A stretch of DNA of 57,483 bases from Verrucomicrobiota bacterium. GTDB taxonomy: Bacteria > Verrucomicrobiota > Verrucomicrobiia > Opitutales > Opitutaceae. Position 1 is the stretch's first letter; each line of letters opens with the position of its first letter. The DNA lies in the NCBI GenBank assembly GCA_030605125.1, contig JAUWBD010000005.1, forward strand, positions 1 through 57,483, read 5' to 3'. The notes beneath the pieces are model-generated. The model was not told the DNA's origin, made no database searches, and was given only the letters and a program-made list of their open reading frames with translations. Below, one piece after another: positions 13,028-57,483 of this stretch. The translations under genes and the position numbers were made by a program.

Positions 13028-14581
13028 ATGTCGCATCACCCCCCCAATAATTCGCTTTTCCAATGGCACTTTCCGGTTGGCTCCCGCGTCATTCGCTCCG
13101 GCCACGTCATAGGATGCGCCTTGATTTCGATTGGGCTATTAATGGTTTTTGCTGGTTCCCGAATACTTGGCTTGGGTCTGGCTAACGTAGGATTGGGTGT
13201 CATCGGTCTTTGGATAGACCGTGAACTTCTGCGCTCATGGCCTCTATCGCCTGTTGCTTGGTTCTCGGCTGTGTGCATTTTCATGGGAGGTTTGGGCCCG
13301 ATCTTAATTGCACTTTCGGGTGAAGCCGCCGTGCCTTCGCTTGATAAAGTGCAGCTAGGAGTGTTCCTGGGTCATGCGGCATTTTTCTCGCTTTATGGTT
13401 TGGTTCGACCGTCTTGGGCGAGGATCCGCCCTTTTCATCTGGTCGATACCATGTCTCCTCGCCTGCTGCGTGTTCTTGTCGCCAGCGGATCGCTTGCTCT
13501 TCTGCTATCGATTGTGGAAGCCATTGTGCTAGCTCGCACGGGGGCCTCGGATCGCGGCGCGTTCGGCACAACGGCGAGCGGGCAACTTTTTGGTATATGG
13601 ACTTATTTCGTGGCTTTCGGTCGAGTCGGTATGGTCGGGTTTATTTTGGCGCCGCTTGTTTTTGTTCGGGGAACGATATTGGCTAAGGTCGTCACTGTGG
13701 CAGCCTTCGTTGTGGTGACCGGTTTGGGGTTCTTGTCCGGCTCCCGTGGAGCCGCATTTACTCCATTGTTATTGGTGGCCGTTGGTTATGTGGCGTTTGT
13801 TCGCCGTCCGTTGGTCAGGCTCGAGATTGCCGCGGTGATACTTGTCCCGGTTTTAGCCTCCGGCTTCGTTTTTTTGGATCATTTTAGGAACACCGCCGGC
13901 TTCAGGGATAGCGATATGGCGACGCCCACCCAGCGACTCAAAGCGATCACCGAGGCCCACGAAAGAGCGGAAAAGGCAAATGTTTCCGGAATGTATCTAC
14001 TCGGTGAGCGACTCGTTGGGACTATAGATAACGTGGTTTACGAAACAACTCCTGCTCTTATTCCGCATGCAGGAAATCAAAACATAGGAGCGATTCTGTG
14101 GCTTTACGTGCCCTACTTTTTGTATCCCTATCGGCCCATCATGGTCGATGGAAAGGCGATTGCCGAAGAATATTTAGGACGTGCTTTGGTGGGCACCTCT
14201 ATCGGCACGTCCCTAACGGGTGATTGGTATCGCCGCTACGGATTTGCGGGCGTCGTGGTTGGAATGGCGTTGATGGGTATAGGTGTGGGCTTATATCAAA
14301 GAGCACTATTTTATGGCGTTGAGAAGCAACGATATTTTGCGTTGGCGCTCTGGCTCGTCTTAGCGACGTTTATTACCAAAGATTCGAATATGACTGTTCT
14401 TTCGGGAATATGGTGGCTGTTCTATGACCTTCCCAAAAACGCGTTGCTATTATGGGGCTGTATGCATCTGTCGCCGCTGGTGGCTTCTTTTTTTATCGGG
14501 GGCTCTACGACAAACTCGAAACCCGTTGGTAGCGTAGCAAATAAAAAACCAGTGCTCGGTCCACGGATAACATCCTCTTAA
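13028..14581 (+). CDS. O-antigen/EPS polymerase-like membrane protein (Wzy-type)
   Basis: 517 aa with about 10-12 predicted membrane segments and a large loop in the second half (roughly residues 280-385, containing LVGTSIGTSLTGDWYRRYGF), the usual layout of Wzy-like polymerases, whose sequences are poorly conserved. ATG 13028 lies 5 bp after the flippase stop. It would polymerise repeat units at the periplasmic face. Assignment rests on topology and position. Confidence 0.7.
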   Translation: MSHHPPNNSLFQWHFPVGSRVIRSGHVIGCALISIGLLMVFAGSRILGLGLANVGLGVIGLWIDRELLRSWPLSPVAWFSAVCIFMGGLGPILIALSGEAAVPSLDKVQLGVFLGHAAFFSLYGLVRPSWARIRPFHLVDTMSPRLLRVLVASGSLALLLSIVEAIVLARTGASDRGAFGTTASGQLFGIWTYFVAFGRVGMVGFILAPLVFVRGTILAKVVTVAAFVVVTGLGFLSGSRGAAFTPLLLVAVGYVAFVRRPLVRLEIAAVILVPVLASGFVFLDHFRNTAGFRDSDMATPTQRLKAITEAHERAEKANVSGMYLLGERLVGTIDNVVYETTPALIPHAGNQNIGAILWLYVPYFLYPYRPIMVDGKAIAEEYLGRALVGTSIGTSLTGDWYRRYGFAGVVVGMALMGIGVGLYQRALFYGVEKQRYFALALWLVLATFITKDSNMTVLSGIWWLFYDLPKNALLLWGCMHLSPLVASFFIGGSTTNSKPVGSVANKKPVLGPRITSS

Positions 14582-44209: not shown

Positions 44210-44330
44210 GGGGAGGGCGGGGATAAGGGAGTGAGGGAATGAGGGAGTGGGGGAGTGAGGGCGGAGTTGATGGATATGCCTGGAGCTTTGGCTGGCGGCG
44301 GGAGGCGGCGAGAGATAGGAGTTGATCGGG

Positions 44331-45221
44331 ATGCCCAAACGATTGACGAAAATGACCGATCCGACGCGGCACCGCCTGTGGGCGGAGCTGAGGGGGGATT
44401 CGCGGTTGGAGTCGCTGCGCTTCGGCGCGTTGGGCTGGGTGCCCCGCAAGGCGGAGCGCGTGGTCGGCGTGCAGGACAAGTTTGCGCTTTGCGTGCTGCG
44501 GGCGGGGTCGGCGGGCACGTTTTGGGACGAGGCCGCAGGGGCGACGCGGCGGGTGCGGGGGCCGGGCGTGTTTTTCGTGCGGCCGGGGGGCGGGCAGGAC
44601 TATGGGCCGGCTGCGGATGCGGATCGTTGGCAGGAGTTTTATTGGATCGTGGAGGGGGAGCGTCCGCGCGAGTGGTTGCGGGCGGGGTGGTGGGATGAGC
44701 GGGCGTGTTTTTGGCCGGTGTCCGCGGCGCTGGCGGCGGAGGCCTGGGAGCTGTTTTGCGCCGCATCCCGTGCGCTCGAGCAGCGAGATGGCAGGGCCCT
44801 CGACCGGGCGAAGCTGGCCTTGGAGCGATGGCTGGCCGAGGGGCCTTGGGTGGCGGCGGCCAAGGACTCGCGCGCGGGGGAGTCGTCCATCGCGGGCGTG
44901 GTCGAGGCCTGGCGGCGCGATCTGGCGCGGCCCTGGTCCTTGCGCGAATGCGCGAAGGGAGCCGGCATGAGCTACACGCGCTTTCGGGCGCGTTTTGCGG
45001 AGGAGATCGGGCGGAGTCCGCACGCGCACCTCACGCGGCTGCGCCTGGAGTTGGCGAGGCGGTGGCTGCGGGCGACGGAGGAGCCGGTGAAGGCGATCGC
45101 GGTGCGCTGCGGGTTCTCCCGGGTGGAGCCGTTTATCCGGGCCTTCGCCAAGGCGCACGGCGAGACGCCCGCCCGCTGGCGCGCCGCGCAGGCGGCGAAC
45201 AGCAAAAAAGCCCGGCTGTGA
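44331..45221 (+). CDS. AraC-family transcriptional regulator
   Basis: 296 aa from ATG 44331, preceded by TAGGAG; a TTG 9 bp earlier is possible. Residues 1-165 look like an AraC cupin sensor (GVFFVRPGGGQDYGP). The C-terminal two HTH motifs are clear: WSLRECAKGAGMSYTRFRARFAEEIGRSPHAHLTRLRLELARRWL and VKAIAVRCGFSRVEPFIRAFAKAHGETPARWR. It shares a 120-bp divergent region with GH42 and likely activates it in response to a sugar. Confidence 0.9.
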   Translation: MPKRLTKMTDPTRHRLWAELRGDSRLESLRFGALGWVPRKAERVVGVQDKFALCVLRAGSAGTFWDEAAGATRRVRGPGVFFVRPGGGQDYGPAADADRWQEFYWIVEGERPREWLRAGWWDERACFWPVSAALAAEAWELFCAASRALEQRDGRALDRAKLALERWLAEGPWVAAAKDSRAGESSIAGVVEAWRRDLARPWSLRECAKGAGMSYTRFRARFAEEIGRSPHAHLTRLRLELARRWLRATEEPVKAIAVRCGFSRVEPFIRAFAKAHGETPARWRAAQAANSKKARL

Positions 45222-45263: not shown

Positions 45264-46034
45264 TCAGTAGAACATGTGCACGTGGCGGTTGAGCACCTCG
45301 CCCTTTTTGAAGGTGCCCACGTGGCCGTCCACGAAGACCACGTTGAGCGTGTCGCCGGAGTGGCGGTAGCGGAGGTGGCCGCCGGTCGCGGGATCGACGT
45401 CGCCCGCGGTGGTGATGGGCTCGTGGGCGGCGCTGGCGTTGGTCGTCGTGCTGTCCGCGGCCGTGATGCTGTAGAAATTGGAGTGCGCGCCCCCATGCGC
45501 CTGCTGCGGCCCGTCCGCCATGAGGATGACCTCCGACGGACGCGGGATCGAGCCCATGCGGACCAGCTTTTTGGAACTGGCGCCGGTGCCGATGTCGGCT
45601 TCGTTTGGCATCACGCGCGGGTGGGCGGAGTAGGAGGAACGGTTGAAGTTGGCCTCGGTGGGAATGATCGTGCGGCTCGGGCAGACGGCCAGCCCGCTAC
45701 GGGCGCCTTCCGCGATGTTGTTCCCGTTGCCGGTCGAGCCGAAATAGGGCCGGAGAAACTGCACCCAGACCTGGCCGCCGGCCTCGCCGCTCGGGCCCCC
45801 GGCGATCGCCTGGGTGGGCGGGTAGAAGCCGCGCTCGTTGCCATAGATCTGGATCGCAAGACCGATCTGGCGGAGGTTGCTCTTGCAAGCGGCGGAGCGC
45901 GCCGATTCGCGCACGCGGCCGACGGTGGGGATGATGATCGCGGCGAGGATGCCGATGATCGCGATCACGGTGAGCAGCTCGATCAGCGTGAAGCCGCGGG
46001 CGGAGGAGAGGAGGTGGGGACGGATCGGGGTCAT
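45264..46034 (-). CDS. Prepilin-like protein with type II/IV leader and H-x(n)-DG end
   Basis: 256 aa. The leader [24 protein letters not shown] holds the prepilin peptidase site (G followed by FTLIE) and the hydrophobic helix. The C-terminal [17 protein letters not shown] is the H-x-DG signature of a large PVC-bacteria prepilin-like family (here ten residues between H and DG, usually nine). Such proteins are processed by the prepilin peptidase and go to the envelope. Sitting among glycoside hydrolases, it may help present or export the GH5 enzymes. Confidence 0.9.
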
Positions 46035-46090
46035 GGGGGAATGAACGGACGATGATCCACGCGCACGGTGAACTCCACCCCCGCGAAAGT

Positions 46091-46100
46091 TAACCCGTTA
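46091..46100 (-). promoter_or_regulatory. LacI-type operator candidate A
   Basis: TAACGGGTTA on the minus strand (within AGTATAACGGGTTAACT), 57 bp before the prepilin-like start. One of five TAACGVGTDA sites in the glycan-utilisation locus. Confidence 0.55.
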
Positions 46101-46131
46101 TACTGCGGCTGCCGTTTTCCACGTAGGCGCC

Positions 46132-46141
46132 TAACGCGTGA
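46132..46141 (+). promoter_or_regulatory. LacI-type operator candidate B, upstream of GH5-1
   Basis: TAACGCGTGA, exactly 112 bp from its first base to the GH5-1 start codon. Identical core and spacing to candidate C. Confidence 0.6.
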
Positions 46142-46243
46142 ACCTCGGCGTAGCTCGCCGCGCTGCGCGTCCTGCCGTCATCAACGCCCCCGCCGCCCGG
46201 CGCCCCCTTTTGCCGTGCGCCAAACCCCCAACCCCCGAACCCC

Positions 46244-47968
46244 ATGAAAAAAACCCACCGCAATCGACCGCGGGTGCTCGCTTTCGCGTGCGCCCTTCTC
46301 GCAGGAATCGGCCTCGGCCACGCAACCCTTCGCGCCGCGACCGCGGCGACCCTGCACGCCGAAATGGGAGCCGGCATCAATTACGGCCAATACTACGAGA
46401 CGGATCGTTCGAATATCGCCAAGCTCCCGATCGACGCGTTGAAGTTCACGACGATCCGCCAGCATGGCTTCAAGCATGTGCGCATCCCGGTTTCGTGGGG
46501 TCTGCGCCTAGAATGGAAGGGCGCGGACGCTCGCGCGAGAGTTCACCGCGACTTTATGGACAGCGTGAAGATGTCCGTGGATCGGGCGCTCGACGCGGGC
46601 TTGATCGTGATCCTCAACACCCACCACGAAGACTGGTTTCAGAAGTATTACACCCTGGAGAACAACGCGCGTATCCGGCTGACGAACGGGAAATTCGAAA
46701 TCGCGTCGCCGAGCCAGGGCGGCCGTCTCGCGCTCCATGTCTACGAGGACATCTGGCACCACATCGCGGAACGATTCAGGGGGCACGAGCGATACGAGAG
46801 ATTGATATTCGAAGGGCTCAACGAGCCGCGGATCGCGGAAAACAGCACCCTCGGCGATTTCACGAACTCACAGGTGAACATTCTGAACCAGCAGATCTTC
46901 GGAATTGTTCAGACGTATCCCAATCAGGGCAATCGCCGCGTTTACATGATGACGGTCAACAACGCGAACAACGCCATGTCCTTCAAGCACCTCACCCTTC
47001 CCGAATATCTGAATTGGCCAGACGACCAAGTGCGGGACCAGCTCATGGTGACGATCCACTACTACCATAGCCAAGATTGGACGCACGCAGAGATCGCCGA
47101 TAAGCCGAATTGGGGCACCGAGAAGGATTACGGACAGCTTATTGAACGCTTCAAGTGGATCACGCCCGATTTGCCGGACAAGTTCACCCCCGCCTCGTCA
47201 AAGCTCGTCGGAGTGAAGGTAAACATCGGCGAGTTTGGTATCCGGCACCAGAGGCCAAACGGCGCCGGCGCGAGCAACCGAAACCTGAGCTCCGTGCTCG
47301 AATGGTATCGCGTGGTTGCCGCCGCCGCCAAGCACCACGGCCACAGCTACACGGTGTGGTGCGACAACGGCTGGTTTCGCGTCTTCAACCGCAACGACGG
47401 CACCGGGGGCAGCTTTAACTGGGGAGATAGCTACCAGTCGGAGATCTGGAAAATGGTCACGCTGCACGAGAACCGGTGGCGGCTGAAGAGCGCGCTCAAT
47501 TCGTCGTGGAATCTCGCGTCCTCGGGTCTTACGTGGTCGCCCTGGGTGCTCAAGAACGCGAGCGGGATTGATCAGTTTCAGCAATTCCAGTTCCAGGTGG
47601 ATCCGGGAATAAAGCTGACGGAGGTGCGCGACAAGCTGCGCTACCCGGCGCTGCGAAACTTCGGAGCGGGCAAGTTCCTCGACGTCGAGAACGAGGGCAG
47701 CCCGGGAGATGGCAACGCGATCCGCAATCGCGACGGCGTGCTCGACTCGGCCCTCGACCACTACGTGGCGCTTGAACACGGCCCCGAGGGCGGCGGACGC
47801 TACTCGCTGACGATCCCGTTGCCGGCCCCGCTCTACCACGACATGCCCGGCGCACGCCGCGTAATCCGGGTGCCGGAAAACGCCGGCCCCGGCACCGCCG
47901 CCACGCTCTGGCGCTTCAGCGCGACCAACGCCACCGGCCAGCGCTGGCGCCTCGAGCAGGTGCGGTGA
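46244..47968 (+). CDS. Secreted GH5 glycoside hydrolase (paralogue 1)
   Basis: 574 aa. Signal peptide at residues 1-32. The GH5 barrel has HVRIPVSWG, VILNTHHEDWF, FEGLNEPR with acid/base Glu194, TIHYYHSQDWTH and VNIGEFGIRH with nucleophile Glu330, then TVWCDNGWFRVFN. Residues from about 415 on form a second domain ending in GQRWRLEQ, like a ricin-type trefoil. Endo-acting on cellulose, mannan or xyloglucan is likely; subfamily not known. Its upstream 115 bp resembles that of paralogue 2. Confidence 0.92.
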   Translation: MKKTHRNRPRVLAFACALLAGIGLGHATLRAATAATLHAEMGAGINYGQYYETDRSNIAKLPIDALKFTTIRQHGFKHVRIPVSWGLRLEWKGADARARVHRDFMDSVKMSVDRALDAGLIVILNTHHEDWFQKYYTLENNARIRLTNGKFEIASPSQGGRLALHVYEDIWHHIAERFRGHERYERLIFEGLNEPRIAENSTLGDFTNSQVNILNQQIFGIVQTYPNQGNRRVYMMTVNNANNAMSFKHLTLPEYLNWPDDQVRDQLMVTIHYYHSQDWTHAEIADKPNWGTEKDYGQLIERFKWITPDLPDKFTPASSKLVGVKVNIGEFGIRHQRPNGAGASNRNLSSVLEWYRVVAAAAKHHGHSYTVWCDNGWFRVFNRNDGTGGSFNWGDSYQSEIWKMVTLHENRWRLKSALNSSWNLASSGLTWSPWVLKNASGIDQFQQFQFQVDPGIKLTEVRDKLRYPALRNFGAGKFLDVENEGSPGDGNAIRNRDGVLDSALDHYVALEHGPEGGGRYSLTIPLPAPLYHDMPGARRVIRVPENAGPGTAATLWRFSATNATGQRWRLEQVR

Positions 47969-47990
47969 CGGGCGCCAAAGCCCATGTTCC

Positions 47991-48026
47991 GGGCGGGAGC
48001 GTGCCGGCCACGGCGCGCTCCCGCCC
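47991..48026 (+). terminator. Candidate terminator after GH5-1
   Basis: An 11-bp perfect stem GGGCGGGAGCG / CGCTCCCGCCC with a 14-base loop, about 20 bp after the GH5-1 stop. It has no T-run, so strength is uncertain. Confidence 0.5.
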
Positions 48027-48120
48027 CTGGAAGCGCGGTGAGGAAGGTTACAGCCATGGCGGCCAGCGTATTCAAAATGTGGTGACTATTCGGAGGACGG
48101 GCGAGGTCTGCCGTTCGGTA

Positions 48121-48130
48121 TAACGCGTGA
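48121..48130 (+). promoter_or_regulatory. LacI-type operator candidate C, upstream of GH5-2
   Basis: TAACGCGTGA, 112 bp from its first base to the GH5-2 start codon, preceded by GGTA so that TATAAC overlaps it. Confidence 0.6.
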
Positions 48131-48232
48131 AGCTCGGCGCGGCTCGCCGCGCGGCCGCGCCCGCCGTCATCAATGCCTCGCCGCGCGGCCCGCCCCTTTG
48201 GCCGGCGGCTCAACCCCCAACCCAAAACCCCC

Positions 48233-50017
48233 ATGAACATCCGCCTGCTCTCGCGGTCGCGCACCGTCGCGGCCCTCCTGCTCGCCGGTCTCGGCGCCTT
48301 CGTCGCCAAGCTCGACGCCTGGACCTCCCACCAGCTCCACGACATGATGGGTCGTGGCATCAACTACGGCCAATATTACGACAACCAAGGCCAACGCCAC
48401 AACTCGACGCTCGGGGCGATCCCGCTCGAGCATTTCGAGGCCATCCGCGCCGCCGGCTTCAGCCACGTGCGCCTCCCGGTGACCTGGGGATACCGCATGT
48501 ATTTCCCCTCCGGCTCAAGCGGCTCGCCCGCGGTGAAGAGCGCCTTCCTCGCCAGCGTGAAGGCCTCCGTGGACAACGCCCTCGACGCCGGCCTCGTGGT
48601 CATCCTCAACAGCCACCACGAGCGCTGGTTTCAATACTACTGGGCGGCCAAGGGCGACCAGCAGGACATCCGCCTGCGCGAGAGCGGCACCGAGCCGCAC
48701 TCCGGCTCCAAGCCCTGGGACTACGTGCCCACCGCCCGCGCCTCCGGCGGACGCAAGGCCTCCGAGATCTACCAGGCGCTCTACGCCCAGCTCGCCCAAA
48801 CCTTCAACACGCCCAAATACGACAAGCTGATCTTCGAGGGCCTCAACGAACCGCGCAAGCAGGTGGAGGACAAGGACGGCTCGGGCGGCTTGATCGACGC
48901 CTTCCCGCTCAACCAAACCGGTCATGGAAGAGTGAATACGGTGAACGCGATGCTCTTCGCCGTGGTGCAGGACAACTACCAGACCAGCCACGGCGCGCGA
49001 CGGACCTACCTGATGACCGTGAACGACATGAACAACGCCTACTCCTTCCGCCACCTCACGATGCCCGAATACGGCGGCTGGAACATCGAGCAACGGCGCA
49101 ACCGGCTGATGATCACGCTGCACTATTACCACTCGATGCCGTGGACCCACGACGAGAGCCCGCACCAGAACACCTGGGGCTCCGGGGGCAACGCCGAGGC
49201 CGACTACGATCAGCTCCGGGCGCGGCTCGACATGATCGTCTCCACCAACCCCTCGAACTTCAACCAGGCCAACTCGCCCCTTGTCGGCGTGCCGGTGAAC
49301 ATCGGCGAATTCGGTGTCGCCCACCGCCAGCGCACCACGCGCAACACCGACGACGTGCTCGAATGGTATCGGGCGGTGAGCGCGGCCGCGCTGGAACGGA
49401 ACCTCTCCGCCACCGTGTGGTGCGACAACGGCTGGTTTCGCGTGTTTAACCAGACCAACGGCACCTTCACGCATCCGGGAGAGCCGGACTACGTGAACGA
49501 GATCTGGAAGCAGGTGACGCTCTTCGAGAACCGCTGGCGGCTTGTCAGCAAGGCCAACTCCTCCCACCGGCTCGCGGTGGACGCGAACGCCGACTTCACG
49601 AAGTGGTATCTGCGCGCCGCCGCCACGGGCAACAGCCAGATCTTCACCTTCGAGGTGGATCCCGCCGCGCGGCTGTCGGCCAACGATCGCATCAAATACT
49701 TCGCGCTACGCAGCGAAAACGGCGCGCCGAACGGGCGCTACATCGACCTCGCGAACAACTCGAGCGCGAGCGGCACGCAGGTGCAGAGCAGCACCGCCTC
49801 GCTGGACACCGTGCTCGATCACTACGTGTTTCTCGGGTTTGAGAACGGCACCGGCTCCTTCCGCGTGGTCACGCGGCTCAATCAGCAGGAGTATCCGGAG
49901 ACCACGGCGAACGACATGGTGGTCGCCGCTCCGGGAGGCCTGAACACGATCGCCGTGCTCAACGCCCGCGCCGGAAACAACAACCAGCGCTGGGTGCTGG
50001 AGAAGGCGCCGAACTGA
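48233..50017 (+). CDS. Secreted GH5 glycoside hydrolase (paralogue 2)
   Basis: 594 aa from ATG 48233. Signal peptide at residues 1-30. The barrel mirrors paralogue 1: HVRLPVTWGY, VILNSHHERWFQYYW, FEGLNEPRKQ (acid/base Glu206), TLHYYHSMPWTHDE, VNIGEFGVAH (nucleophile Glu359), TVWCDNGWFRVFN. It has a longer loop at residues 145-180 and the same C-terminal trefoil-like domain ending in NNQRWVLEK. Tandem duplication with the promoter region seems the simplest origin. Confidence 0.92.
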   Translation: MNIRLLSRSRTVAALLLAGLGAFVAKLDAWTSHQLHDMMGRGINYGQYYDNQGQRHNSTLGAIPLEHFEAIRAAGFSHVRLPVTWGYRMYFPSGSSGSPAVKSAFLASVKASVDNALDAGLVVILNSHHERWFQYYWAAKGDQQDIRLRESGTEPHSGSKPWDYVPTARASGGRKASEIYQALYAQLAQTFNTPKYDKLIFEGLNEPRKQVEDKDGSGGLIDAFPLNQTGHGRVNTVNAMLFAVVQDNYQTSHGARRTYLMTVNDMNNAYSFRHLTMPEYGGWNIEQRRNRLMITLHYYHSMPWTHDESPHQNTWGSGGNAEADYDQLRARLDMIVSTNPSNFNQANSPLVGVPVNIGEFGVAHRQRTTRNTDDVLEWYRAVSAAALERNLSATVWCDNGWFRVFNQTNGTFTHPGEPDYVNEIWKQVTLFENRWRLVSKANSSHRLAVDANADFTKWYLRAAATGNSQIFTFEVDPAARLSANDRIKYFALRSENGAPNGRYIDLANNSSASGTQVQSSTASLDTVLDHYVFLGFENGTGSFRVVTRLNQQEYPETTANDMVVAAPGGLNTIAVLNARAGNNNQRWVLEKAPN

Positions 50018-50030
50018 AGACAAGGCAAAG

Positions 50031-50061
50031 GCGCCTGGAGGGGCGGCGTCCCTCCAGGCGC
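50031..50061. terminator. Hairpin between convergent genes
   Basis: Perfect 12-bp stem GCGCCTGGAGGG / CCCTCCAGGCGC with a 7-base loop, between the GH5-2 stop and the 3' end of the minus-strand secreted protein. No T-run on either side. Confidence 0.6.
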
Positions 50062-50083
50062 AACGCGGCCTCCCGCCGGAGGT

Positions 50084-50842
50084 TCAGGGCGTGGTCACCG
50101 TGAGCCGTCCGAGGCTCGCGCTCATGTAGGTGTCGGGGATCGCCGCGGCGTGGTTGCGCCGCGCCTCGAGCACGAGCGCGCTCGGGCCGCCGGTCGCCCA
50201 GTCGCCGGCGCGCAGGTCCATGACGCCGCTGCGCGTGATCTCGCCCTGCGCGCCGCTGGTGCGGATGGTGAGCGTGTAGGTGATGGAGCCCGGCTTCGCA
50301 TGCGGGTCGAGGCTCAGGCGAAAACCGGTGGCGCGGCCGTCGAAGCGCGCGAAGGCGGTCGCGCCGCGCTGCGAGCCCGACACGTCTTCCGCGGCGAGTT
50401 TGTCCACCGGGCCGGTCTTGAAGCCGAGCATCGCCGCGCCGGGCACGAAGCGGATGCTGAGCGACTGCGCGGCCATGTTTTGCCGCAGCTCGGAGGAGTT
50501 GAGCGAGACGCGAAAGACCGCCTCGTTGTCCGGGATGCCCTTCGAGTCGAGCACCATGTCCTCGACGGTGATCGTGATCGGGCGCACGAAAAAGTTGAGC
50601 CGCTCGTCGAGCGCGGTGTTGAGCCCGGCGAAGGTGTAGGAGGCGTTGGTGGCGAAGAGGGTGAGCGAGCCGTTGTTCTCGAACACGCCGTTGTCGCCGG
50701 TGATCGCCTGGAGTTTCCAGAGACCGGGCGCGGCGGCGTGGCCGGAGGGGTTTCCGTCGTCGAAGGTGTCGTCGATGATCGTGCGCGGCGCGGCGACGAC
50801 GAGGAGCGGGGCGAGGAGGGCGAGAGGCAGCAGGGTTTTCAT
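50084..50842 (-). CDS. Secreted protein of unknown function
   Basis: 252 aa. Signal peptide (MKTLLPLALLAPLLVVAA), then a mostly beta sequence: IIDDTFDDGNPSG, NGSLTLFATNASYTFAGL, RPITITVEDMVLDSKG, LSIRFVPGAAMLGFKTG and a C-terminal SLGRLTVTTP. This suggests a beta-sandwich or concanavalin-like module, perhaps carbohydrate-binding. No family was recognised. It lies 30 bp downstream of the GH10 gene in the same direction and is probably co-transcribed with it. Confidence 0.65.
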   Translation of the reverse strand: MKTLLPLALLAPLLVVAAPRTIIDDTFDDGNPSGHAAAPGLWKLQAITGDNGVFENNGSLTLFATNASYTFAGLNTALDERLNFFVRPITITVEDMVLDSKGIPDNEAVFRVSLNSSELRQNMAAQSLSIRFVPGAAMLGFKTGPVDKLAAEDVSGSQRGATAFARFDGRATGFRLSLDPHAKPGSITYTLTIRTSGAQGEITRSGVMDLRAGDWATGGPSALVLEARRNHAAAIPDTYMSASLGRLTVTTP

Positions 50843-50872
50843 GGGTAACGGTGGAGGGGCGGCGGTGTGGTT

Positions 50873-52654
50873 TCAGGCAAGGTCGAGCGCCAGCGGCGCG
50901 TTCGCGCCGGGGCGGTGCGCGATGGTCTGGGTGCGGCGCGAGCCGTCGGCGCGGGTGAGGGTCACCTCGTAGTCGCCGTAGAAGGCGGCGGGGAGCTCGC
51001 AGGCGCCGTCACGGTCGGTCTCGGCGGAGGCGTGGGTGTGCCAGGTGCGCTTGAGCAGCTCGCGGAGCGCGCGTGCGTTGGGCTTTTCGCTCCAGTCCTT
51101 GCGGAAGAGCGCGGCGGAGGGCCACCAGTGCTCGCCGGCCCAGAAGCCCCACATCTGCAGGCCGATGGTGCTCGGGTGGCTGAAGACGGCGGTGAAAAAA
51201 TCGTGGAGATACTCGGCCTGCAGCTCCTCGTCGTCCGCCGCCATGTCAAACTCGGTGATGCGCACCGGCAGCCCGAGCGTCGCGGCGTAGTGGTCGAGCG
51301 TCTTGAGGAGCGAGGCGGGCGGGCAGGGGATGCCGCCGATGTGCGACTGGAGGCCGAGGCCGCCGAGCGGCGCGCCCTGCTCGAGCAGCCGGCGGGCGGT
51401 CTTCACGAAGTGCGCGACGTGCTGCGGATCGCTGTCGATATCGTGCGTGCCCCAGTCGTTGAGGAAAAGCGGCACCTGCTCGCCGAGCACGTCGCGCGCG
51501 GTCTGGAACCACTCGGCCATGATGCCGTCGCCGAAGCGCGCCATGAGGTCGTTGTGGTTGAAGGGCTCGTTGACGACGTCCCACTCCTTCACGAGGCCGC
51601 GGGTGGCGAAGGCGATGTCGGTGATGTGCTCACGCACGAGCTGCGGGATCGCGGCGTCGCCGGCGGTGTCGCGCAGGCGGGTGATGTGCGGCGGCAGGTG
51701 TTTCCAGCTCGGCCAGAGGAAGACGTGGCCGCGCACGGCGATGTGCCGTTCGCGCAGCCAGCGCAGGCCGGCGAGGGTGGCCTCGCGCGGCAGCGAGTTG
51801 CCCGAGGCGCCGATCCACTTGGCCCACTTGAGGTCGTTTTCCGGGCAGGCGGCGTTGAAGAGCTCGAGAAACACCTCGCGGTAGCGGGCGGCGTCGGGCG
51901 AGGGGTCGGCGACGAATTTGAGCGGGATGCAGGTGCCGAACTCGTAGGCGTGGCGGACGAGCCGGGCCTCGACGCGCAGGCCGGGCGCGGGCCGGCCGGT
52001 GTCGGTGAGCGCGCGGAGGAGCAGGGGGCCGCGCCGGTGCCGGCGGATGCGCGCCTCGGCCTCGGCGCGCCAGGGGGCGTCGGTGGCGCGGCCGGCGTAG
52101 GTGACGCGGGTGAAGGGCAGGTCGGCGAGCGAGACGCGGTCGCCGTAGTGAATGACGGATACATCGCGCACCTCGACGGTTTGTTCGTGGTAGCCGAAGC
52201 CGAGCACCACCTCGACCGTGCCGGCCGGGCAGTCGCGCGGGAAACGCACGGGTAGGTGCAGCTCGCGCCAGGCGGCGCCGACGGCGAAGCGGGCCTCGGC
52301 GGGGCGCATGAAGACGCCGCCGTGGTTTTGCACGGTGACGGCGAGCGAGGCCTCGGCGGTCTCATGCGTCACGCGGGTGGCCCGGGCCTCGACGCGGACG
52401 AGGGCGACGTCGCCCTTGGCCACGGGGTGGGCGAGCACGGCGAGGAGTTTTACCGAATTGGGCGGGGGTGCGGTGCGAAGGGTGGCGACGCGCCAGCCGC
52501 CGGCGGAGGAAGGGGCCGCGGCGCCGCCTCCGGTTCGATCAAAGCGGGCGGCATCGGGCTCGGACGAGGCGGGCTGGAAGGCCTGGGTCCAGGCGGTCGC
52601 GAGCAGGCTGGTGAGGACCGGCGGGGCGGAATCGGCGGCGGCAAGCGGTTGCAT
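50873..52654 (-). CDS. GH10 endo-beta-1,4-xylanase
   Basis: 593 aa. Residues 15-170 are a beta-rich module (CBM-like), 180-235 a linker, then the GH10 barrel: YEFGTCIPLKFVAD, FNAACPENDLKWAKW, RGHVFLWPSW, WDVVNEPFNHND with acid/base Glu363 and LPVRITEFDM with nucleophile Glu468. After about residue 545 there is a small beta domain. No signal peptide is visible at the N-terminus, unusual for a xylanase. Operator candidate D lies 72 bp upstream of its start. Confidence 0.93.
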   Translation of the reverse strand: MQPLAAADSAPPVLTSLLATAWTQAFQPASSEPDAARFDRTGGGAAAPSSAGGWRVATLRTAPPPNSVKLLAVLAHPVAKGDVALVRVEARATRVTHETAEASLAVTVQNHGGVFMRPAEARFAVGAAWRELHLPVRFPRDCPAGTVEVVLGFGYHEQTVEVRDVSVIHYGDRVSLADLPFTRVTYAGRATDAPWRAEAEARIRRHRRGPLLLRALTDTGRPAPGLRVEARLVRHAYEFGTCIPLKFVADPSPDAARYREVFLELFNAACPENDLKWAKWIGASGNSLPREATLAGLRWLRERHIAVRGHVFLWPSWKHLPPHITRLRDTAGDAAIPQLVREHITDIAFATRGLVKEWDVVNEPFNHNDLMARFGDGIMAEWFQTARDVLGEQVPLFLNDWGTHDIDSDPQHVAHFVKTARRLLEQGAPLGGLGLQSHIGGIPCPPASLLKTLDHYAATLGLPVRITEFDMAADDEELQAEYLHDFFTAVFSHPSTIGLQMWGFWAGEHWWPSAALFRKDWSEKPNARALRELLKRTWHTHASAETDRDGACELPAAFYGDYEVTLTRADGSRRTQTIAHRPGANAPLALDLA

Positions 52655-52725
52655 AGGGGAGGCACCGGGTAGGTGCTCCGGAGCAGTGTGCCCGGCGCCG
52701 AGGGCGAGCCGACGCCGTCGGTGCT

Positions 52726-52735
52726 TTACTCGTTA
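52726..52735 (-). promoter_or_regulatory. LacI-type operator candidate D, upstream of GH10
   Basis: TAACGAGTAA on the minus strand, directly after the LacI-1 stop and 72 bp before the GH10 start. It forms a longer palindrome CTCGT-TAG-ACGAG. Confidence 0.55.
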
Positions 52736-52741
52736 GACGAG

Positions 52742-53779
52742 TTACGAGGCGGAGGCGGTGATCGCGGCGCGGGGGCAGGTGGGGCCGTCGCGCCAGACGC
52801 CCTCGATCAGCACGGATTTGGGCGTCTCGGGGATGCCGCGGCGGTTTTGGTTGATCTGCTCGACGAGCAGATCGACGGCGGCCGCGCCGACTTTTTCCGG
52901 CTGCTGGTTGATGCCGGCGAAATCGCCGCGCTCGGGCGTGTAGTCGAGATAGACATACGCCACGTCCTGCGGCACGCGCACGCCCGCCTGCTTCAGCCAG
53001 GCGAGGATCGGCACGTGGGTGGTGACGATCACCTCGGGCCGCTGGCGCTCGTGCCAGGCGAGGAAGGGCTCGCGCTCGAATTCATCGATCACGAGCGGAG
53101 CGAGTTTCTTCAGCTTCGGGTGCCGGGCGAGAAAGCCGAGGTAGGTGGAGAGCCAGATGTGCTCGGTCTTGTCGTCCACGATTTGCGGAATGGCGAAGCC
53201 GATGCGGGTGAAGCCGCGGTCGCGGCAGGCGGCGAGGGCGGTGTTGATGCTGTGAAAACCGCTGTTGGCGATGTGGTGCGTGGGGACCTCGTTGAAGGAC
53301 CAGCCGAGGGCGACGGTGGAGAAGCGGCTCCAGTCGAGGCCGAGCCGGTGGCCGTGCTCGGGCAGCGGGGCGATGAGCACGCCGGGGATGCCGCGCGTCT
53401 CCAGGATGGTGCTCATGCGTGCGCCGGAGTGGGCGGCCTCGCCCATCCAATGCTCTTCCAAGCCGTAGCCCAGCTCGGCGGCGCGGGCTCGGGCGCCGGC
53501 GTGGTAGCGGGGGAAGACGGGGATCGAGCGCCAGCCGTCGCGGGTGGGGAAGGCGGTGAGGAAACAGAGGTTGTAGGACGAGCCGGTGCGGCGTTTGGCA
53601 CGCAGGCTGACCATGAGCGCGCTCACCATGGGGTTGGGCTTGTAGCCGAGCTCGTCGGCGACGCGGGCGATCTTGGCGCGCATCTCCTCGGAGATGCGGC
53701 GGCTGCCGCGCAGGCCGAGCGAAACCGTGACCTTGGAGACCTTCAGGCGCCGGGCGATGGTTTCGAGGGTGACGGCCAT
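52742..53779 (-). CDS. LacI-family transcriptional regulator 1
   Basis: 345 aa from ATG 53779 (MAVTLETIARRLKVSKVTVSLGLRGSRRISEEMRAKI); a start 36 bp earlier is possible. The HTH and hinge (GYKPNPMVSALMVSL) are typical LacI, followed by a periplasmic-binding-protein-like sugar domain ending NQNRRGIPETPKSVLIEGVWRDGP. It is adjacent to GH10 and paralogous to LacI-2 over its full length. Confidence 0.93.
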   Translation of the reverse strand: MAVTLETIARRLKVSKVTVSLGLRGSRRISEEMRAKIARVADELGYKPNPMVSALMVSLRAKRRTGSSYNLCFLTAFPTRDGWRSIPVFPRYHAGARARAAELGYGLEEHWMGEAAHSGARMSTILETRGIPGVLIAPLPEHGHRLGLDWSRFSTVALGWSFNEVPTHHIANSGFHSINTALAACRDRGFTRIGFAIPQIVDDKTEHIWLSTYLGFLARHPKLKKLAPLVIDEFEREPFLAWHERQRPEVIVTTHVPILAWLKQAGVRVPQDVAYVYLDYTPERGDFAGINQQPEKVGAAAVDLLVEQINQNRRGIPETPKSVLIEGVWRDGPTCPRAAITASAS

Positions 53780-53911
53780 GGGGTGGGGTGGCCGTTTTTT
53801 CAGGGCAAGGGGCATGGCGGGGCAACCAAAAGCGCCGCGGCGAAGGCGGGCGCTTTTCGGGGCGACGCCAGCAGGCGGCGCGCGCGGCCGCGGTGCAAGG
53901 GGCGGGAAAGT

Positions 53912-53921
53912 TTACCCGTTA
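53912..53921 (-). promoter_or_regulatory. LacI-type operator candidate E, upstream of LacI-1
   Basis: TAACGGGTAA on the minus strand; its first three bases are the stop codon of LacI-2. It is 133 bp before the LacI-1 start and could give autoregulation. Confidence 0.5.
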
Positions 53922-54944
53922 GACGGCCCCGCGGTCGGGCAGGGTGGGGCCGTCGCGCCAGACGCCTTCGATCAGGACGGTGCGAGGCACCGAGGGGCTG
54001 CCGCGGCGGTTTTGGTTGATCTGCTCGACGAGCAGGTCCACCGCGGCCTCGCCGATCTGCTCGGGACGCTGGTCCACGGCGGCGATGTCGCCGCGCTCGG
54101 GTATCCAGTCGATGTGCACAAAGGCGACGTCCTCCGGCACGCGCAGCTTTTCCTCGCGCAGCCATTCGAGCGCCATGATGTCGGCGGAGACGACGACCTC
54201 GGGCCGCGTTTTTCGGAACCATTCGAGAAAGCTCTCGCGCGTGAAGGGATCGCCGACGAAGGGCGCGAGCTTGCGCACGGTCGGGTGCGTGGCCTGGAAG
54301 GAGAGAAAGCCGGCGAGCCAGATGTGGTTCACGCGGGCGTCGCTTCCCTTGGTGGTGGCGAGGCCGATGCGGCGGTAGCCGCGGGCCAGGCAGGCGTCGA
54401 GCGCGGTGAGGATGGTGTGGAACTGGTGGTTGGTGACGCGGTGCGTCGGCGCCTGTTTGAAGGTGTGGCCCAGCGCGACGGTGGCGAAGCGCGACCAGTC
54501 GAGGGCGAGCCTGGGGGCGCCGGAGGGAAGGGGCGCGATCAAGACGCCGGGGATGCCGCGCGCCTCGAGGATCTGCGTGAGGCGCGGCCCGGACAGCTCG
54601 GGATCGCGCGCCCAGTGGATCTCGACGCCGTAGCCGAGCGCCTCGGCGCGGCGGAGGGCGCCGGCGTGGTAGCGGTGAAAGACGGCCATCTTGTTCCAGC
54701 CGTCTCGCGTGGGAAAGGAGGTGAGGAAACCGAGGTTGAAGACGCGCCCGGTGCGGCGGTGGGCGCGCAGGCTGACCATGAGCGCGCTGACCATGGGGTT
54801 GGGCGTGTAGCCGAGCTCGGCGGCGGCCTTGAGCACCTTTTCCCGGATCTCCTCGGAGATGCGGCGGCTGCCGCGGAGCACGAGCGAGACGGTGACCTTC
54901 GAGACGCCGACTTTCTTCGCGATGGTTTCGAGCGTGACGGCCAT
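53919..54944 (-). CDS. LacI-family transcriptional regulator 2
   Basis: 341 aa. HTH MAVTLETIAKKVGVSKVTVSLVLRGSRRISEEIREKVL, hinge GYTPNPMVSALMVSL, sugar-binding domain closely related to LacI-1 and ending NQNRRGSPSVPRTVLIEGVWRDGPTLP. The recognition helix VSKVTVSLxLRG is nearly the same in both, so they should bind similar operators. The pair is tandem on the minus strand with the GPH transporter upstream. Confidence 0.94.
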   Translation of the reverse strand: MAVTLETIAKKVGVSKVTVSLVLRGSRRISEEIREKVLKAAAELGYTPNPMVSALMVSLRAHRRTGRVFNLGFLTSFPTRDGWNKMAVFHRYHAGALRRAEALGYGVEIHWARDPELSGPRLTQILEARGIPGVLIAPLPSGAPRLALDWSRFATVALGHTFKQAPTHRVTNHQFHTILTALDACLARGYRRIGLATTKGSDARVNHIWLAGFLSFQATHPTVRKLAPFVGDPFTRESFLEWFRKTRPEVVVSADIMALEWLREEKLRVPEDVAFVHIDWIPERGDIAAVDQRPEQIGEAAVDLLVEQINQNRRGSPSVPRTVLIEGVWRDGPTLPDRGAV

Positions 54945-55032: not shown

Positions 55033-56466
55033 TCAGGTCCGGCCGCGGCGGCTCTCCAGCTCGGCGCGAATCGCGACCATGCGCGACTGCGTGAGCGGGT
55101 AGCGCAGGAGGAGCAGCACCGCGGGCACGAGGAAGAGCGTGGGCACGAGCGCGAAGCAGAGGCGCATGTTGTGAAAGGTTTCCGGGCTCTGGTCGGCGCG
55201 GCGCGCGACCTCGAAGCCGCACCAGGTGACGATGAGGCCGGCGACGCCGTAGGCGAGGGACACGCTGGCCTTGTTGATCCAGGAGAAGATCGAGTTGAAG
55301 CCGCCTTCGCGCCGGTCGCCGCGACGCAACTCCTCGGAGTCCACGACGTCGGCGAGCATCGAGGGGATGACGAGCCAGATGCCGGTGTAGCCGGGCGAGA
55401 GCATCACGCCGGTGACGAGCGCGAGCCAGGGGTGCTCGGGCGTGTAGGTGACCCAGGAGAGCCAGGTGGCGAGGAGGATGACGCCGGCCGAGCACATGAG
55501 CGTCTCACGTTTTCCGATGCGCCGGCAGAGCCATTGGAAAAGCGGGATGGTGACGATGCCGAGCGCCATCGCGGCGGTGCTTTCGTAGCCGCTGAGCTCG
55601 GCGGAAAACACGGTGTCGCCGCGGAGCGCGTAGTAGGTGCGCAGGTAGAACATCTGCCCCTGCACGAGGTTGATGCCGAAGCCGAAGAGCAGCGTGAAGA
55701 CCGCGAGCACGCGGAAGCCGGGATTCTGAAACGTGCGCCGAAAGGCGGGCCAGAACGGCTCCTTGGGCTGGCGGGCGACGAGCACGGCGTTGCGCTCCTT
55801 GACGAGGAAGGCGGGCAGCACGGCGAGCATCATGATGAGCAGGCCGAGCGCGAGGCCGATGATCCGCATGCCGTGGAGCGAGTCGGGCTGGCCGGTGACG
55901 GGATTGTGGAAAATCTCGAGCTGCGTGAGGCGCCACACCCAGCCGCCGAAGATGGTGGCGAGTTTGCTGAAGAAGGAGAAGTAGGCGGAGATGCTGGTGC
56001 GCTCGTTGGTGTCGGGCGACATCTCGGGCAGCATGCTCTGGTAGGGCATCACCCAGACGGTGAAGACGGCGTAGAAGAGCAGGCCGGTGCCGATGAGGTA
56101 GCCGACCTTGGCGGCCTGCGACCACTCGGGCTGGCCGAGCCAGAGAAGCGGAAACACGAGCCCGGTGAGGAGGCCGCCGACGAGCACGTAGGGGCGGCGG
56201 CGGCCCCAGCGCGAGCGGGTGTTGTCGGAGATCCAGCCCATGAGCGGGTCGAGGACCGCGTCCCAGAGGCGGAAGACGAGGAAGATCCAGCCGATGTGCG
56301 CGGGCGAGATGCCGAGCGCGTCCACGAAGATGGCGGCGCTGAGCCACTTCACCAGCGTGGTGCCGAAGAAGGTGGTCATGCCGGCCGCGCCGTAGGCTGA
56401 CTTGGTCCAGAAGGGGACGCGGTCTTCGGGGCGCGGGCGAGGGGCGGGAGCGGTGGCGGCGGACAC
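55033..56466 (-). CDS. MFS sugar:cation symporter of the GPH family
   Basis: 477 aa with about 12 membrane segments. Loop motifs fit the glycoside-pentoside-hexuronide family: DAVLDPLMGWISDNTRSRWGRRRPY (the D-x4-D...GRRRP motif), FYAVFTVWVMPYQSMLPEMSPDTNERTSISAYFSFFS, and LADVVDSEELRRGDRREGGFNSIFSW. It imports sugars or oligosaccharides released outside the cell, consistent with its place between LacI regulators and a GH5. Confidence 0.92.
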   Translation of the reverse strand: MSAATAPAPRPRPEDRVPFWTKSAYGAAGMTTFFGTTLVKWLSAAIFVDALGISPAHIGWIFLVFRLWDAVLDPLMGWISDNTRSRWGRRRPYVLVGGLLTGLVFPLLWLGQPEWSQAAKVGYLIGTGLLFYAVFTVWVMPYQSMLPEMSPDTNERTSISAYFSFFSKLATIFGGWVWRLTQLEIFHNPVTGQPDSLHGMRIIGLALGLLIMMLAVLPAFLVKERNAVLVARQPKEPFWPAFRRTFQNPGFRVLAVFTLLFGFGINLVQGQMFYLRTYYALRGDTVFSAELSGYESTAAMALGIVTIPLFQWLCRRIGKRETLMCSAGVILLATWLSWVTYTPEHPWLALVTGVMLSPGYTGIWLVIPSMLADVVDSEELRRGDRREGGFNSIFSWINKASVSLAYGVAGLIVTWCGFEVARRADQSPETFHNMRLCFALVPTLFLVPAVLLLLRYPLTQSRMVAIRAELESRRGRT

Positions 56467-56517: not shown

Positions 56518-57483
56518 TCAGCGGCGCGTGGCGGGGAAGACGACCGGGCCGGAGGGATCGAGCGCGGCGGCGCGGCGGAACGAGTCGATCACGGCCTCGT
56601 CGGCGGAGAACACCTCGGCGTCGGTGCGCCAGGAGGACCATTTGCGCAGGATCGTCTCGTAGTCGTCCTTCTCGAAATCGGGGATGTTGTGGTCGTTGGC
56701 GCGGCGCGCCTCGTAGAGGCCCCACTGGCTGGCGGCGCGGGTCTTGTAGGCCCACTTCGCCCAGCCGATGCCGTGGCGGGTGAAGAGCTCCATGCGCGGT
56801 CCCCAAGCCTCGGGGCCGTCCTTGAAGCTGAATTCGCCGAGGTAGAAGGGCGCGTCGTATTGGTCGCGGCTGATGCGGGCGTTGCGCCCGAGGCGCTCCA
56901 CCCAGAAGCCGGCCTCGGTGCCGCCCTCGTCGAGGTAGCGCTTGTAGATATACCAGTGGTAGGCGAGGACGTAGTTGGTTTTCCCTACAGTGAGGTTGCC
57001 GACGTGGTAGTGCTCGGACCAGACGGAGAAGAACACGATGTGGTCGGGGTCCACGGAGCGAACGACGCGGTAGAGCTCGGAGACGAAATCGATGATGCCC
57101 TGGTCCCAGGACTTGGCCTTGTTGGTGCGGGCGGGTTCGTTGAGCAGATCGTAGCCGGCGACGGCCGCCTCGTGCCGGTAGTGGCGGGCGATCTCGCGCC
57201 AGAGCGACTTGGTCATGGTCTGGTAGCGGGCGGAATCCCAGAGGAGGGGGCCGCGGCGGTCGCCGGAGTGGTCGCGGCCGTTTTGCGAGCCGGGCGCGCC
57301 GTGCAGGTCGAGGATCGAATACATCCCGTGGCGCTTGGCGGCCTGCACGGCCTGGTCGATGCGGGAGAAGTCGATGGAGCCGTCGGGGCGGCGCTTGAAG
57401 GAGCCGTCCTCGTGCATGTGGTTTTGCCAGTGGATGGGGATGCGCACCGAGTTGAGGCCGGCGGCGGCCATGCGGGCGAAGTC
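56518..57483 (-). CDS. GH5 glycoside hydrolase (N-terminally truncated by window edge)
   Basis: The frame is open through the window edge, so at least the first part is missing. NSVRIPIHWQNH, YSILDLHGAPGSQNGRDHSGDR, GYDLLNEPAR (acid/base Glu), YVLAYHWYIYK and FYLGEFSF (nucleophile Glu) fit GH5, of the exo-glucanase or mannanase-like branch rather than that of paralogues 1 and 2. The stop at 56518 is 51 bp before the GPH gene on the same strand, suggesting co-transcription. Confidence 0.9.
   Translation of the reverse strand, partial: DFARMAAAGLNSVRIPIHWQNHMHEDGSFKRRPDGSIDFSRIDQAVQAAKRHGMYSILDLHGAPGSQNGRDHSGDRRGPLLWDSARYQTMTKSLWREIARHYRHEAAVAGYDLLNEPARTNKAKSWDQGIIDFVSELYRVVRSVDPDHIVFFSVWSEHYHVGNLTVGKTNYVLAYHWYIYKRYLDEGGTEAGFWVERLGRNARISRDQYDAPFYLGEFSFKDGPEAWGPRMELFTRHGIGWAKWAYKTRAASQWGLYEARRANDHNIPDFEKDDYETILRKWSSWRTDAEVFSADEAVIDSFRRAAALDPSGPVVFPATRR

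Follow-up and report, generated by a model that had tools for sequence, protein, structure and literature searches.

In the 57,483-nt contig JAUWBD010000005.1 of a Verrucomicrobiota bacterium of the family Opitutaceae, a glycan-utilization locus carries glycoside hydrolase (GH) genes of families 5 and 10, two LacI-type regulator genes (LacI-1 and LacI-2), and five copies of the motif TAACGVGTDA. This whole contig (C212, ending at position 57483) is referred to as the window hereafter; the genome (G000) comprises 4.88 Mb in 271 contigs. The motif is genuine and recurs as a regulatory site; it forms the core of a 16–18-bp dyad, and most of the dyads lie at a single fixed distance upstream of a −35/−10-like pattern. 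These features make it fairly probable that the sites define a LacI-family activator regulon for the use of β-glucan and xylan, in which the dyad would be bound by LacI-1 and/or LacI-2 and would activate from about −54. The initial annotation had proposed that a glycan regulon is controlled through a LacI-type site common to its genes. This proposal is well supported by the dyad, by its recurrence near LacI genes in other genera, by its co-occurrence with one LacI clade, and by the targets (GH5, GH10, GH26, GH94, and LacI genes). The repressor operator that it implied, however, is probably wrong for most of the sites, given the single fixed spacing.

Sites in the window and in the genome

The five sites were found where they had been annotated, at 46091 (−), 46132 (+), 48121 (+), 52726 (−), and 53912 (−), and all of them are oriented toward the next gene. 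The expectation of less than one chance match also held: shuffled windows gave a mean of 0.20, and none of 100 shuffles reached the six matches of the window. The sixth 10-mer, at 14214, is located outside the glycan locus. Four of the five sites lie in gaps between genes, as had been claimed for all; in the remaining one, at 53912, the TAA is the stop codon of the LacI-1 gene. The distance of 112 bp to the two GH5 starts (46244 and 48233) is indeed equal, but it does not provide two independent observations, because the sites at 46132 and 48121 begin a duplicated block (117 bp, 74% identical); the common spacing may have been inherited by this duplication.

With the reversed motif as the control pattern here and below, the 10-mer occurs 13 times in the genome versus 7 for the control, and five of the 13 matches fall within 8 kb; background may make up much of this total. 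The extended pattern TAACGNGTNAA has nine exact matches in the genome, five of them in the window.

The 18-bp dyad

When the sites of this genome and of its relatives were compared, a G was found three bases 5′ of TAACG, and a C and often an A were found 3′ of the site. The half-palindromic core noted initially belongs to a larger dyad: the full site is an even inverted repeat of 16–18 bp with the halves TGYTTAACG and NGTDAARCA, as judged from 29 sites and a window scan. The 29 sites were picked from the site lists by gene context and outer bases, before the promoter-like element described below was noticed; three sites of contig C264 among them were found with a pattern demanding both the outer G and the outer C. 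Aligned in the same orientation, 28 of the 29 sites have the outer G and 25 have the outer C. All five sites of the window carry the outer G, and three of them (46132, 48121, and 52726) also carry the outer C, which is replaced by T at 46091 and 53912. The repeat falls within the even lengths (16–22 bp) of LacI-family operators. The central CG pair, which is usual but not universal in such operators, is absent: the centre is a G followed by G, C, A, or T, the G itself having been required by the search pattern.

Twenty-one sites were set aside, including those at 14214, on C254, C115, C256, and C59, and at L084:6763, L087:7733, L087:7740, L088:12236, and L089:5116. Also set aside were six copies in the relative G013 (five like the own-type sites and one like that on C254) and two sites of a second LacI clade (L083). 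The matches at 14214 and on C254 (before a hemC-like gene), C115, C256, and C59 were judged accidental; all lack the outer C, and all except that on C256 also lack the outer G. The C254 match (L016:7393; C254:19392), a TAACGGGTGAA match with an ilvC-like gene on one side and a hemC-like gene on the other, appears by eye to be part of a small inverted repeat and is conserved in G013; it was taken as terminator-like and not as a regulon site. A generic enrichment of dyads around 58 LacI genes was dismissed as GC-rich noise.

Fixed position relative to promoter-like elements

A clear regularity was found downstream of the 29 sites: the triplet TNG occurs 13 bases after the 10-mer. T occupies +23 in 28 of the sites and G occupies +25 in 27 of them, and 26 sites have both. 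The best of the other flank columns reaches 20 of 29. The identity among the flanks averages 0.317, with one pair exceeding 0.5; when similar flanks are removed, T is retained in 26 and G in 25 of 27 sites (binomial probabilities of 4e-18 and 7e-13, respectively). The dyad centre precedes the first T of TNG by 18.5 bp and is hence near −54, so that the sites keep one offset upstream of a −35-like element, as would an activator site. The set-aside sites support this fixed geometry as a control: TNG is at the fixed place in only 1 of the 21 (L088:12236), and in 5 of the 6 G013 copies (the hemC copy lacks it) and both second-clade sites. The site at L088:12236 (G009:C182), which reads TTG, had been set aside for lying inside a doubtful open reading frame (ORF) and is perhaps a real promoter.

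The sequence YANNNT follows TNG at 16–17 bp in 17 of 32 sites (28 of the 29, the L076 site before LacI being left out, and four second-clade sites); the other pairs of offsets listed gave 0–3 of 32. TNG and YANNNT separated by 16–17 bp resemble the −35 and −10 elements of a sigma70-type promoter. The bipartite pattern of dyad plus TNG has nine matches in the genome versus none for the control, all on C212, C264, and C50; the corresponding numbers in relatives are 4 versus 0 (G009), 5 versus 0 (G013), 7 versus 3 (G019), and 4 versus 2 (G230). Three sites are positioned differently, ending 15 (L076), 24 (L079), and 19 (L171) bases before a LacI start codon, and they read GCG, TTC, and GCT, respectively, at the fixed place.

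Other targets in the genome

A search allowing one mismatch revealed five further sites on C264 (1090, 3628, 7926, 10742, and 12770), each on the strand of the following gene. According to Pfam, the targets are a DUF1559 pilin-like gene, a PEP-CTERM protein gene, a GH26 gene with Ig domains, a GH5 gene with CBM6, and a GH10 gene; a doubtful ORF (L014:1161-2843) is placed between the first two of them. On C108, a site lies 68 bp upstream of the ATG of a GH94 gene. The C50 cluster, which encodes a LacI paralogue of 49% identity, has GAACGYGTAAA before a pilin-like gene, the LacI gene, and a GH10 gene. One-mismatch matches on C55, C70, and C141 were rejected, as they are not upstream of glycan genes, and no site matching at 10 of 11 positions was found in the scanned parts of C126, C198, C135, C62, C119, and C142.

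The structural matches of the GH26, GH5, GH10, and GH94 products point to mixed-linkage β-glucan and xylan as the likely substrates. The best structural matches of GH26 are endoglucanase H structures (E 2.8e-46), ahead of the mannanase 2qha (2.2e-10); GH10 is closest to xylanases, and GH94 is closest to a putative β-glycan phosphorylase and to chitobiose and cellobiose phosphorylases; the solved relatives of the window GH5 (GH5 glycanase 1) are endoglucanases or cellulases and, more weakly, a β-1,3-1,4-glucanase. Pilin-like DUF1559 genes are abundant both in this genome (62 matches among 87 candidates) and in G019 (all 150 that were scored out of 306 candidates match), which parallels the large LacI family. 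A LacI gene adjoins a pilin-like gene in several loci.

The LacI proteins and co-occurrence with one LacI clade

Both regulators have the helix-turn-helix (HTH) domain PF00356 (59.4 bits for LacI-1 and 44.8 bits for LacI-2; cut-off, 27) and the sensor domain PF13377 (58.4 and 39.5 bits; cut-off, 26.5), and their genes are tandem copies. Among proteins of solved structure, RbsR and PurR match LacI-1 best, with the similarity mostly in the HTH. A named subfamily (PurR, CcpA, GalR, etc.) was not reached: 17 and 15 NCBIfam models match the two proteins, all below their cut-offs. The LacI family is very large, with 78 candidates in this genome and 195 in one relative.

Relatives of LacI-1 at E ≤ 1e-85 occur in 5 of 252 genomes of the family, this genome included. 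The extended site GNNTAACGVGTDAANC has 82 matches in 53 of the 252 genomes. The five genomes with LacI-1 relatives contribute 4, 4, 4, 4, and 2 matches, 18 in total versus 2 for the control, in a test that is not fully independent, the pattern being partly derived there. The other 247 genomes contribute 64 matches (10 in G084 and 54 in the remaining 246) versus about 194 for the control (hand count). Thus, the control is clearly exceeded just in the five LacI genomes together and in G084 (10 versus 0). The 10 matches of G084 were rejected as members of an unrelated family of dispersed intergenic repeats. In this 2.4-Mb relative, an intergenic element ending in a TTTTTGGTTAACGNGTDAAWC-like sequence is dispersed over 10 places (L160–L169), with no LacI gene seen alongside.

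The link was also examined from the side of the LacI genes. A core score of at least 8 was found in the flanks of 11 of 60 LacI genes, as compared with about 0.9 expected from shuffles. The helix SKVTVS[LN] is encoded by seven of the 11, two of which are copies in G013; L078 is truncated ahead of the helix, and the remaining three have other helices. Conversely, seven of the eight genes showing this helix are among the 11; the eighth, on C50, scored lower because its site reads GAACG. In G019, which belongs to another genus, three sites lie within 2.1 kb around a LacI relative of 61% identity: one before a pilin-like gene, one just before the LacI gene, and one over the LacI stop codon before a GH10 gene. 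GH10 genes downstream of a site were also found in G009 and G013. In a Lake Lanier metagenome-assembled genome (MAG; L171, RFMG01000053.1; LacI identity, 56%), the two best sites of 13 kb are located just before the LacI gene and in a divergent intergenic region. The link between the LacI proteins and the motif is thus strong but indirect.

The same geometry with other dyads

The exact TTAACGNGTTAA sequence is not widespread: phylum-wide, TTAACGNGTTAA-N12-TTG has six matches in 4 of 387 genomes. Any generality would lie in the geometry with other dyads. A LacI clade that is only distantly related to LacI-1 (identity of about 35%; helix VTRALVSMALRN) and that was not used to find TNG has the dyad core TTTAACGNGTTAAA on both sides of its LacI genes in G019 (L083:7030-9010) and in two near-identical MAGs (L173 and L174). 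TTG is at the same place in all six dyads, while three non-dyad pattern matches in these loci (L083:9288, L173:6601, and L174:6601) are without it.

Dyads with at least seven A/T were also searched for in 98 regions upstream of pilin-like genes. TTG was at the fixed offset in 6 of 11 strong dyads and, with the AACGNGT-type dyads excluded, in 5 of 10; at 49 other offsets, the latter count averaged 0.27 and did not exceed 2. The half-sites of these other dyads differ (ATCTCTAC, ATTTCTAC, TACTCTTC, TGCTTATG, and ATCTAAC). Upstream of 497 other genes, used as the control, TTG was at the offset in 3 of 54 strong dyads (other offsets: mean, 0.67; maximum, 4). Looser dyads gave 8 of 55 for the pilin-like genes, versus a maximum of 4, and 8 for the other genes, versus a maximum of 10, the offset not being the top one there. 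We tentatively suggest, with somewhat less confidence than doubt, that the LacI family of this lineage consists mainly of fixed-geometry activators, in which each paralogue would have its own dyad 18.5 bp upstream of TNG at a paired pilin-like gene and at neighbouring genes for carbohydrate-active enzymes (CAZymes). This extension to other dyads rests on few promoters.

Features of the window

The positions of the sites and genes are listed in Table 1. No such site was found within 250 bp upstream of the LacI-1 start, and LacI-1 may be read from an operon starting beyond the contig end, in which the GPH-type symporter is possibly included. This symporter gene separates a GH5 gene from LacI-1 in the window but is absent from the corresponding position of G013 (L075), where LacI-1 is 98% identical, the GH5 gene ends at 449, and LacI starts at 590. 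A gene resembling by eye the one downstream of GH10 follows GH10 in G009 as well (L078:2826-3593). The AraC-type regulator near the pilin-like gene could be a second regulator of the locus.

Table 1 Sites, promoter-like elements, and genes of the glycan locus in the window
Feature	Position	Strand	Remarks
AraC-type regulator gene	44322-45221		PF12833 (77.1 bits), PF00165
Pilin-like protein	45264..46034	−	Pfam N_methyl and DUF1559/SBP_bac_10
−10-like CATCGT	46049-46054	−	17-bp spacer from TGG 46075-46077
−35-like TGG	46075..46077	−	Downstream of dyad 46087..46104
Putative activator-type dyad before pilin-like gene	46087..46104	−	Position weight matrix score 24.1, site in training set
Putative activator-type dyad before GH5 gene 1	46128..46145	+	Exact bipartite match from 46129; no −10 recognised
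−35-like TCG	46155..46157	+	After dyad of GH5 gene 1
GH5 glycanase 1	46244..47968	+	PF00150
Putative activator-type dyad before GH5 gene 2	48117..48134	+	Block duplicated with site of GH5 gene 1; no −10 recognised
−35-like TCG	48144..48146	+	After dyad of GH5 gene 2
GH5 glycanase 2	48233..50017	+	PF00150; paralogue of GH5 glycanase 1
Protein downstream of GH10	50084..50842	−	No Pfam match
GH10 xylanase-type enzyme	50873..52654	−	PF00331; best solved match β-xylanase 7d88
−10-like CACACT	52685-52690	−	16-bp spacer from TCG 52710-52712
−35-like TCG	52710..52712	−	Downstream of dyad 52722..52739
Putative activator-type dyad between LacI-2 and GH10	52722..52739	−	Window scan
LacI-2	52742..53815	−	PF00356 and PF13377; helix SKVTVSLGLRG; start codon uncertain
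−35-like TTG	53896..53898	−	Downstream of dyad 53908..53925
Putative activator-type dyad over LacI-1 stop codon, before LacI-2	53908..53925	−	No −10 recognised
LacI-1	53919..54944	−	PF00356 and PF13377; helix SKVTVSLVLRG
GPH-type sugar symporter	55033..56466	−	PF13347; TIGR00792 216.8 bits, below cut-off 231.35
Third GH5 gene	56518..57471	−	PF00150; open toward contig end 57483, promoter beyond view

Mode of action and alternative explanations

The preferred scheme would be as follows. A dimer of LacI-1 and/or LacI-2 would bind the 18-bp operator whose core is the motif. At most targets, the dyad centre lies 18.5 bp before the first T of TNG, with a weak YANNNT −10 element in about half of them, and the predicted transcription start is about 54 bp further downstream than the dyad centre. 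In response to a gluco- or xylo-oligosaccharide, the regulator would recruit RNA polymerase to promoters too poor by themselves. A repressor could bind at nearly any place over a promoter; that otherwise unrelated promoters keep the dyad at almost the same distance from the −35 element suggests a contact with the polymerase. A scattered hemicellulose regulon would thereby be switched on, comprising GH5, GH10, GH26, GH94, the PEP-CTERM protein, a paired pilin-like protein, and the second LacI gene. At three loci (L076, L079, and L171), which belong to two relatives and the paralogous C50 cluster, the site 15–24 bp before the LacI start probably represses the regulator gene itself, which is the simplest reading of these positions. 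The dyad and its targets, recurrence, co-occurrence with LacI, fixed spacing, and −35/−10 pattern are seen in the sequences themselves. The binding of LacI to the dyad, the activation by this binding, and the inducer are all predictions from sequence.

Several observations weigh against this scheme. Binding and expression are predicted throughout. The invariance of AACG.GT in the 29 sites is partly an artefact of pattern-based finding, and the extended pattern was partly derived in the same genomes where it was later counted. Over the family, this pattern is rarer than its control (82 versus about 196, hand count), which weakens the counts outside the five LacI genomes. The one-mismatch motif also falls below its control (131 versus 180; 53 versus 67 in a second scan), and for this reason one-mismatch matches were accepted solely with supporting context (C264 and C50). 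The bipartite pattern is common by chance: 159 of the 252 genomes have at least one, so that its counts elsewhere say little. Among the 29 sites, L079:5419 and the GH94 site have TTC and L076:15807 has GCG instead of TNG, and neither of the two best L171 sites has TNG at the fixed place. In addition, 12 of the 32 sites, including 46132, 48121, and 53912, have no NANNNT at spacers of 15–18. Finally, the 11-mer total of G019 (11 versus 9 for the control) leaves clustering alone as notable there. Given this result and the 10-mer total of the own genome (13 versus 7), it is position and clustering that carry the case and not totals; on this balance, the genome scan and the comparison with relatives favour the initial proposal.

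The alternative closest to the initial annotation is a classical repressor operator, in which LacI on the dyad would block transcription until an oligosaccharide inducer releases it. The dyad size of 16–18 bp suits such an operator, the three sites 15–24 bp before LacI starts fit repression, and CcpA, AraR, and XylR are described as mainly or wholly repressing members of the family. However, most of the sites are clear of the −35/−10 pattern at one fixed spacing, which a blocking repressor would not need, and the −35 and −10 elements are weak, as expected for activated promoters. We therefore regard repression at most of the sites as unlikely, although it deserves to be kept in mind. A still less probable view, to which we give little weight, is that another regulator binds the dyad, or that the site is part of a promoter for an alternative sigma factor, the LacI genes being merely targets. 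The AraC-type gene of the locus (Table 1) and the asymmetric orientation of the sites are compatible with this view, and TAAC resembles some −35 elements of extracytoplasmic function (ECF) sigma factors. Against this view speak the dyad symmetry, the co-occurrence with one LacI clade, the different dyads that keep this spacing upstream of other pilin-like genes, and the fact that TNG and YANNNT form an ordinary 16–17-bp promoter without the dyad. As both GH5 sites belong to a duplicated block and the LacI genes are tandem copies, one could also suppose that the promoters of two GH5 genes and the tails of two LacI genes arose by copying, with everything else accidental. This explanation is hardly credible: it is contradicted by the sites before five C264 genes, before GH94, and in other genera, and by the low flank identity of the 29 sites.

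Activation by LacI-1 and/or LacI-2 from the fixed upstream position thus remains our preferred reading. If such spacing-locked activation were common to several LacI paralogues, the many LacI genes in these Verrucomicrobiota would have to be interpreted differently. The promoters and start sites of their polysaccharide genes could be predicted, and targets could be assigned to each LacI protein from sequence. If, as tentatively suggested above, it were the main mode of the LacI family in this lineage, the promoters would also provide a natural set for clarifying the LacI recognition code and the contact between LacI and RNA polymerase.

Comparison with known systems

LacI proteins are textbook repressors, and activation is rarer, as in the case of CcpA. 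No paper on this regulon was found among the titles listed from the literature on LacI, Verrucomicrobia, and Opitutaceae, in which subscription journals were little covered.

The sites resemble those of the local LacI regulons compiled by Ravcheev et al. 2014 (PMC4052901) in the even palindrome of 16–22 bp, the sugar-related targets, the frequent autoregulation, and the location of most sites 30–140 bp before the starts. They differ in the centre: a central CG pair is found for 1173 of the 1303 regulators in that study, whereas the present sites have a G and a variable base. Neither "verrucomicrob" nor "opitut" appears in that text (0 occurrences). LacI-family control of mannanase, xylanase, and cellulase genes is likewise seen with GlyR2 of Clostridium thermocellum and with AraR and XylR (PMC10766802). 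Unlike the regulators proposed here, however, AraR and XylR are called repressors, and in one study reviewed there the predicted CAZyme regulators were overwhelmingly repressive, the few activators all belonging to the AraC family.

A parallel in mode of action is provided by CcpA, a LacI-family protein whose cre boxes upstream of −35 reportedly activate in a helix-face-dependent manner, as at ackA, pta, and ilvB of Bacillus subtilis (PMC3463425, PMC4591507). An exception that weighs on the other side is the lev cre, which is upstream of the promoter yet represses (PMC3463425). CcpA is a global, mostly repressing regulator acting with HPr-Ser-P, activation being rarer, and its cre has a central CG (WTGNNARCGNWWWCAW); here, the regulators adjoin their putative targets, and nearly all of the listed sites share one spacing. 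The activator reading is the main addition of the present analysis; it describes a known mode of action in variant form, with a geometry that is unusually strict and apparently recurs.

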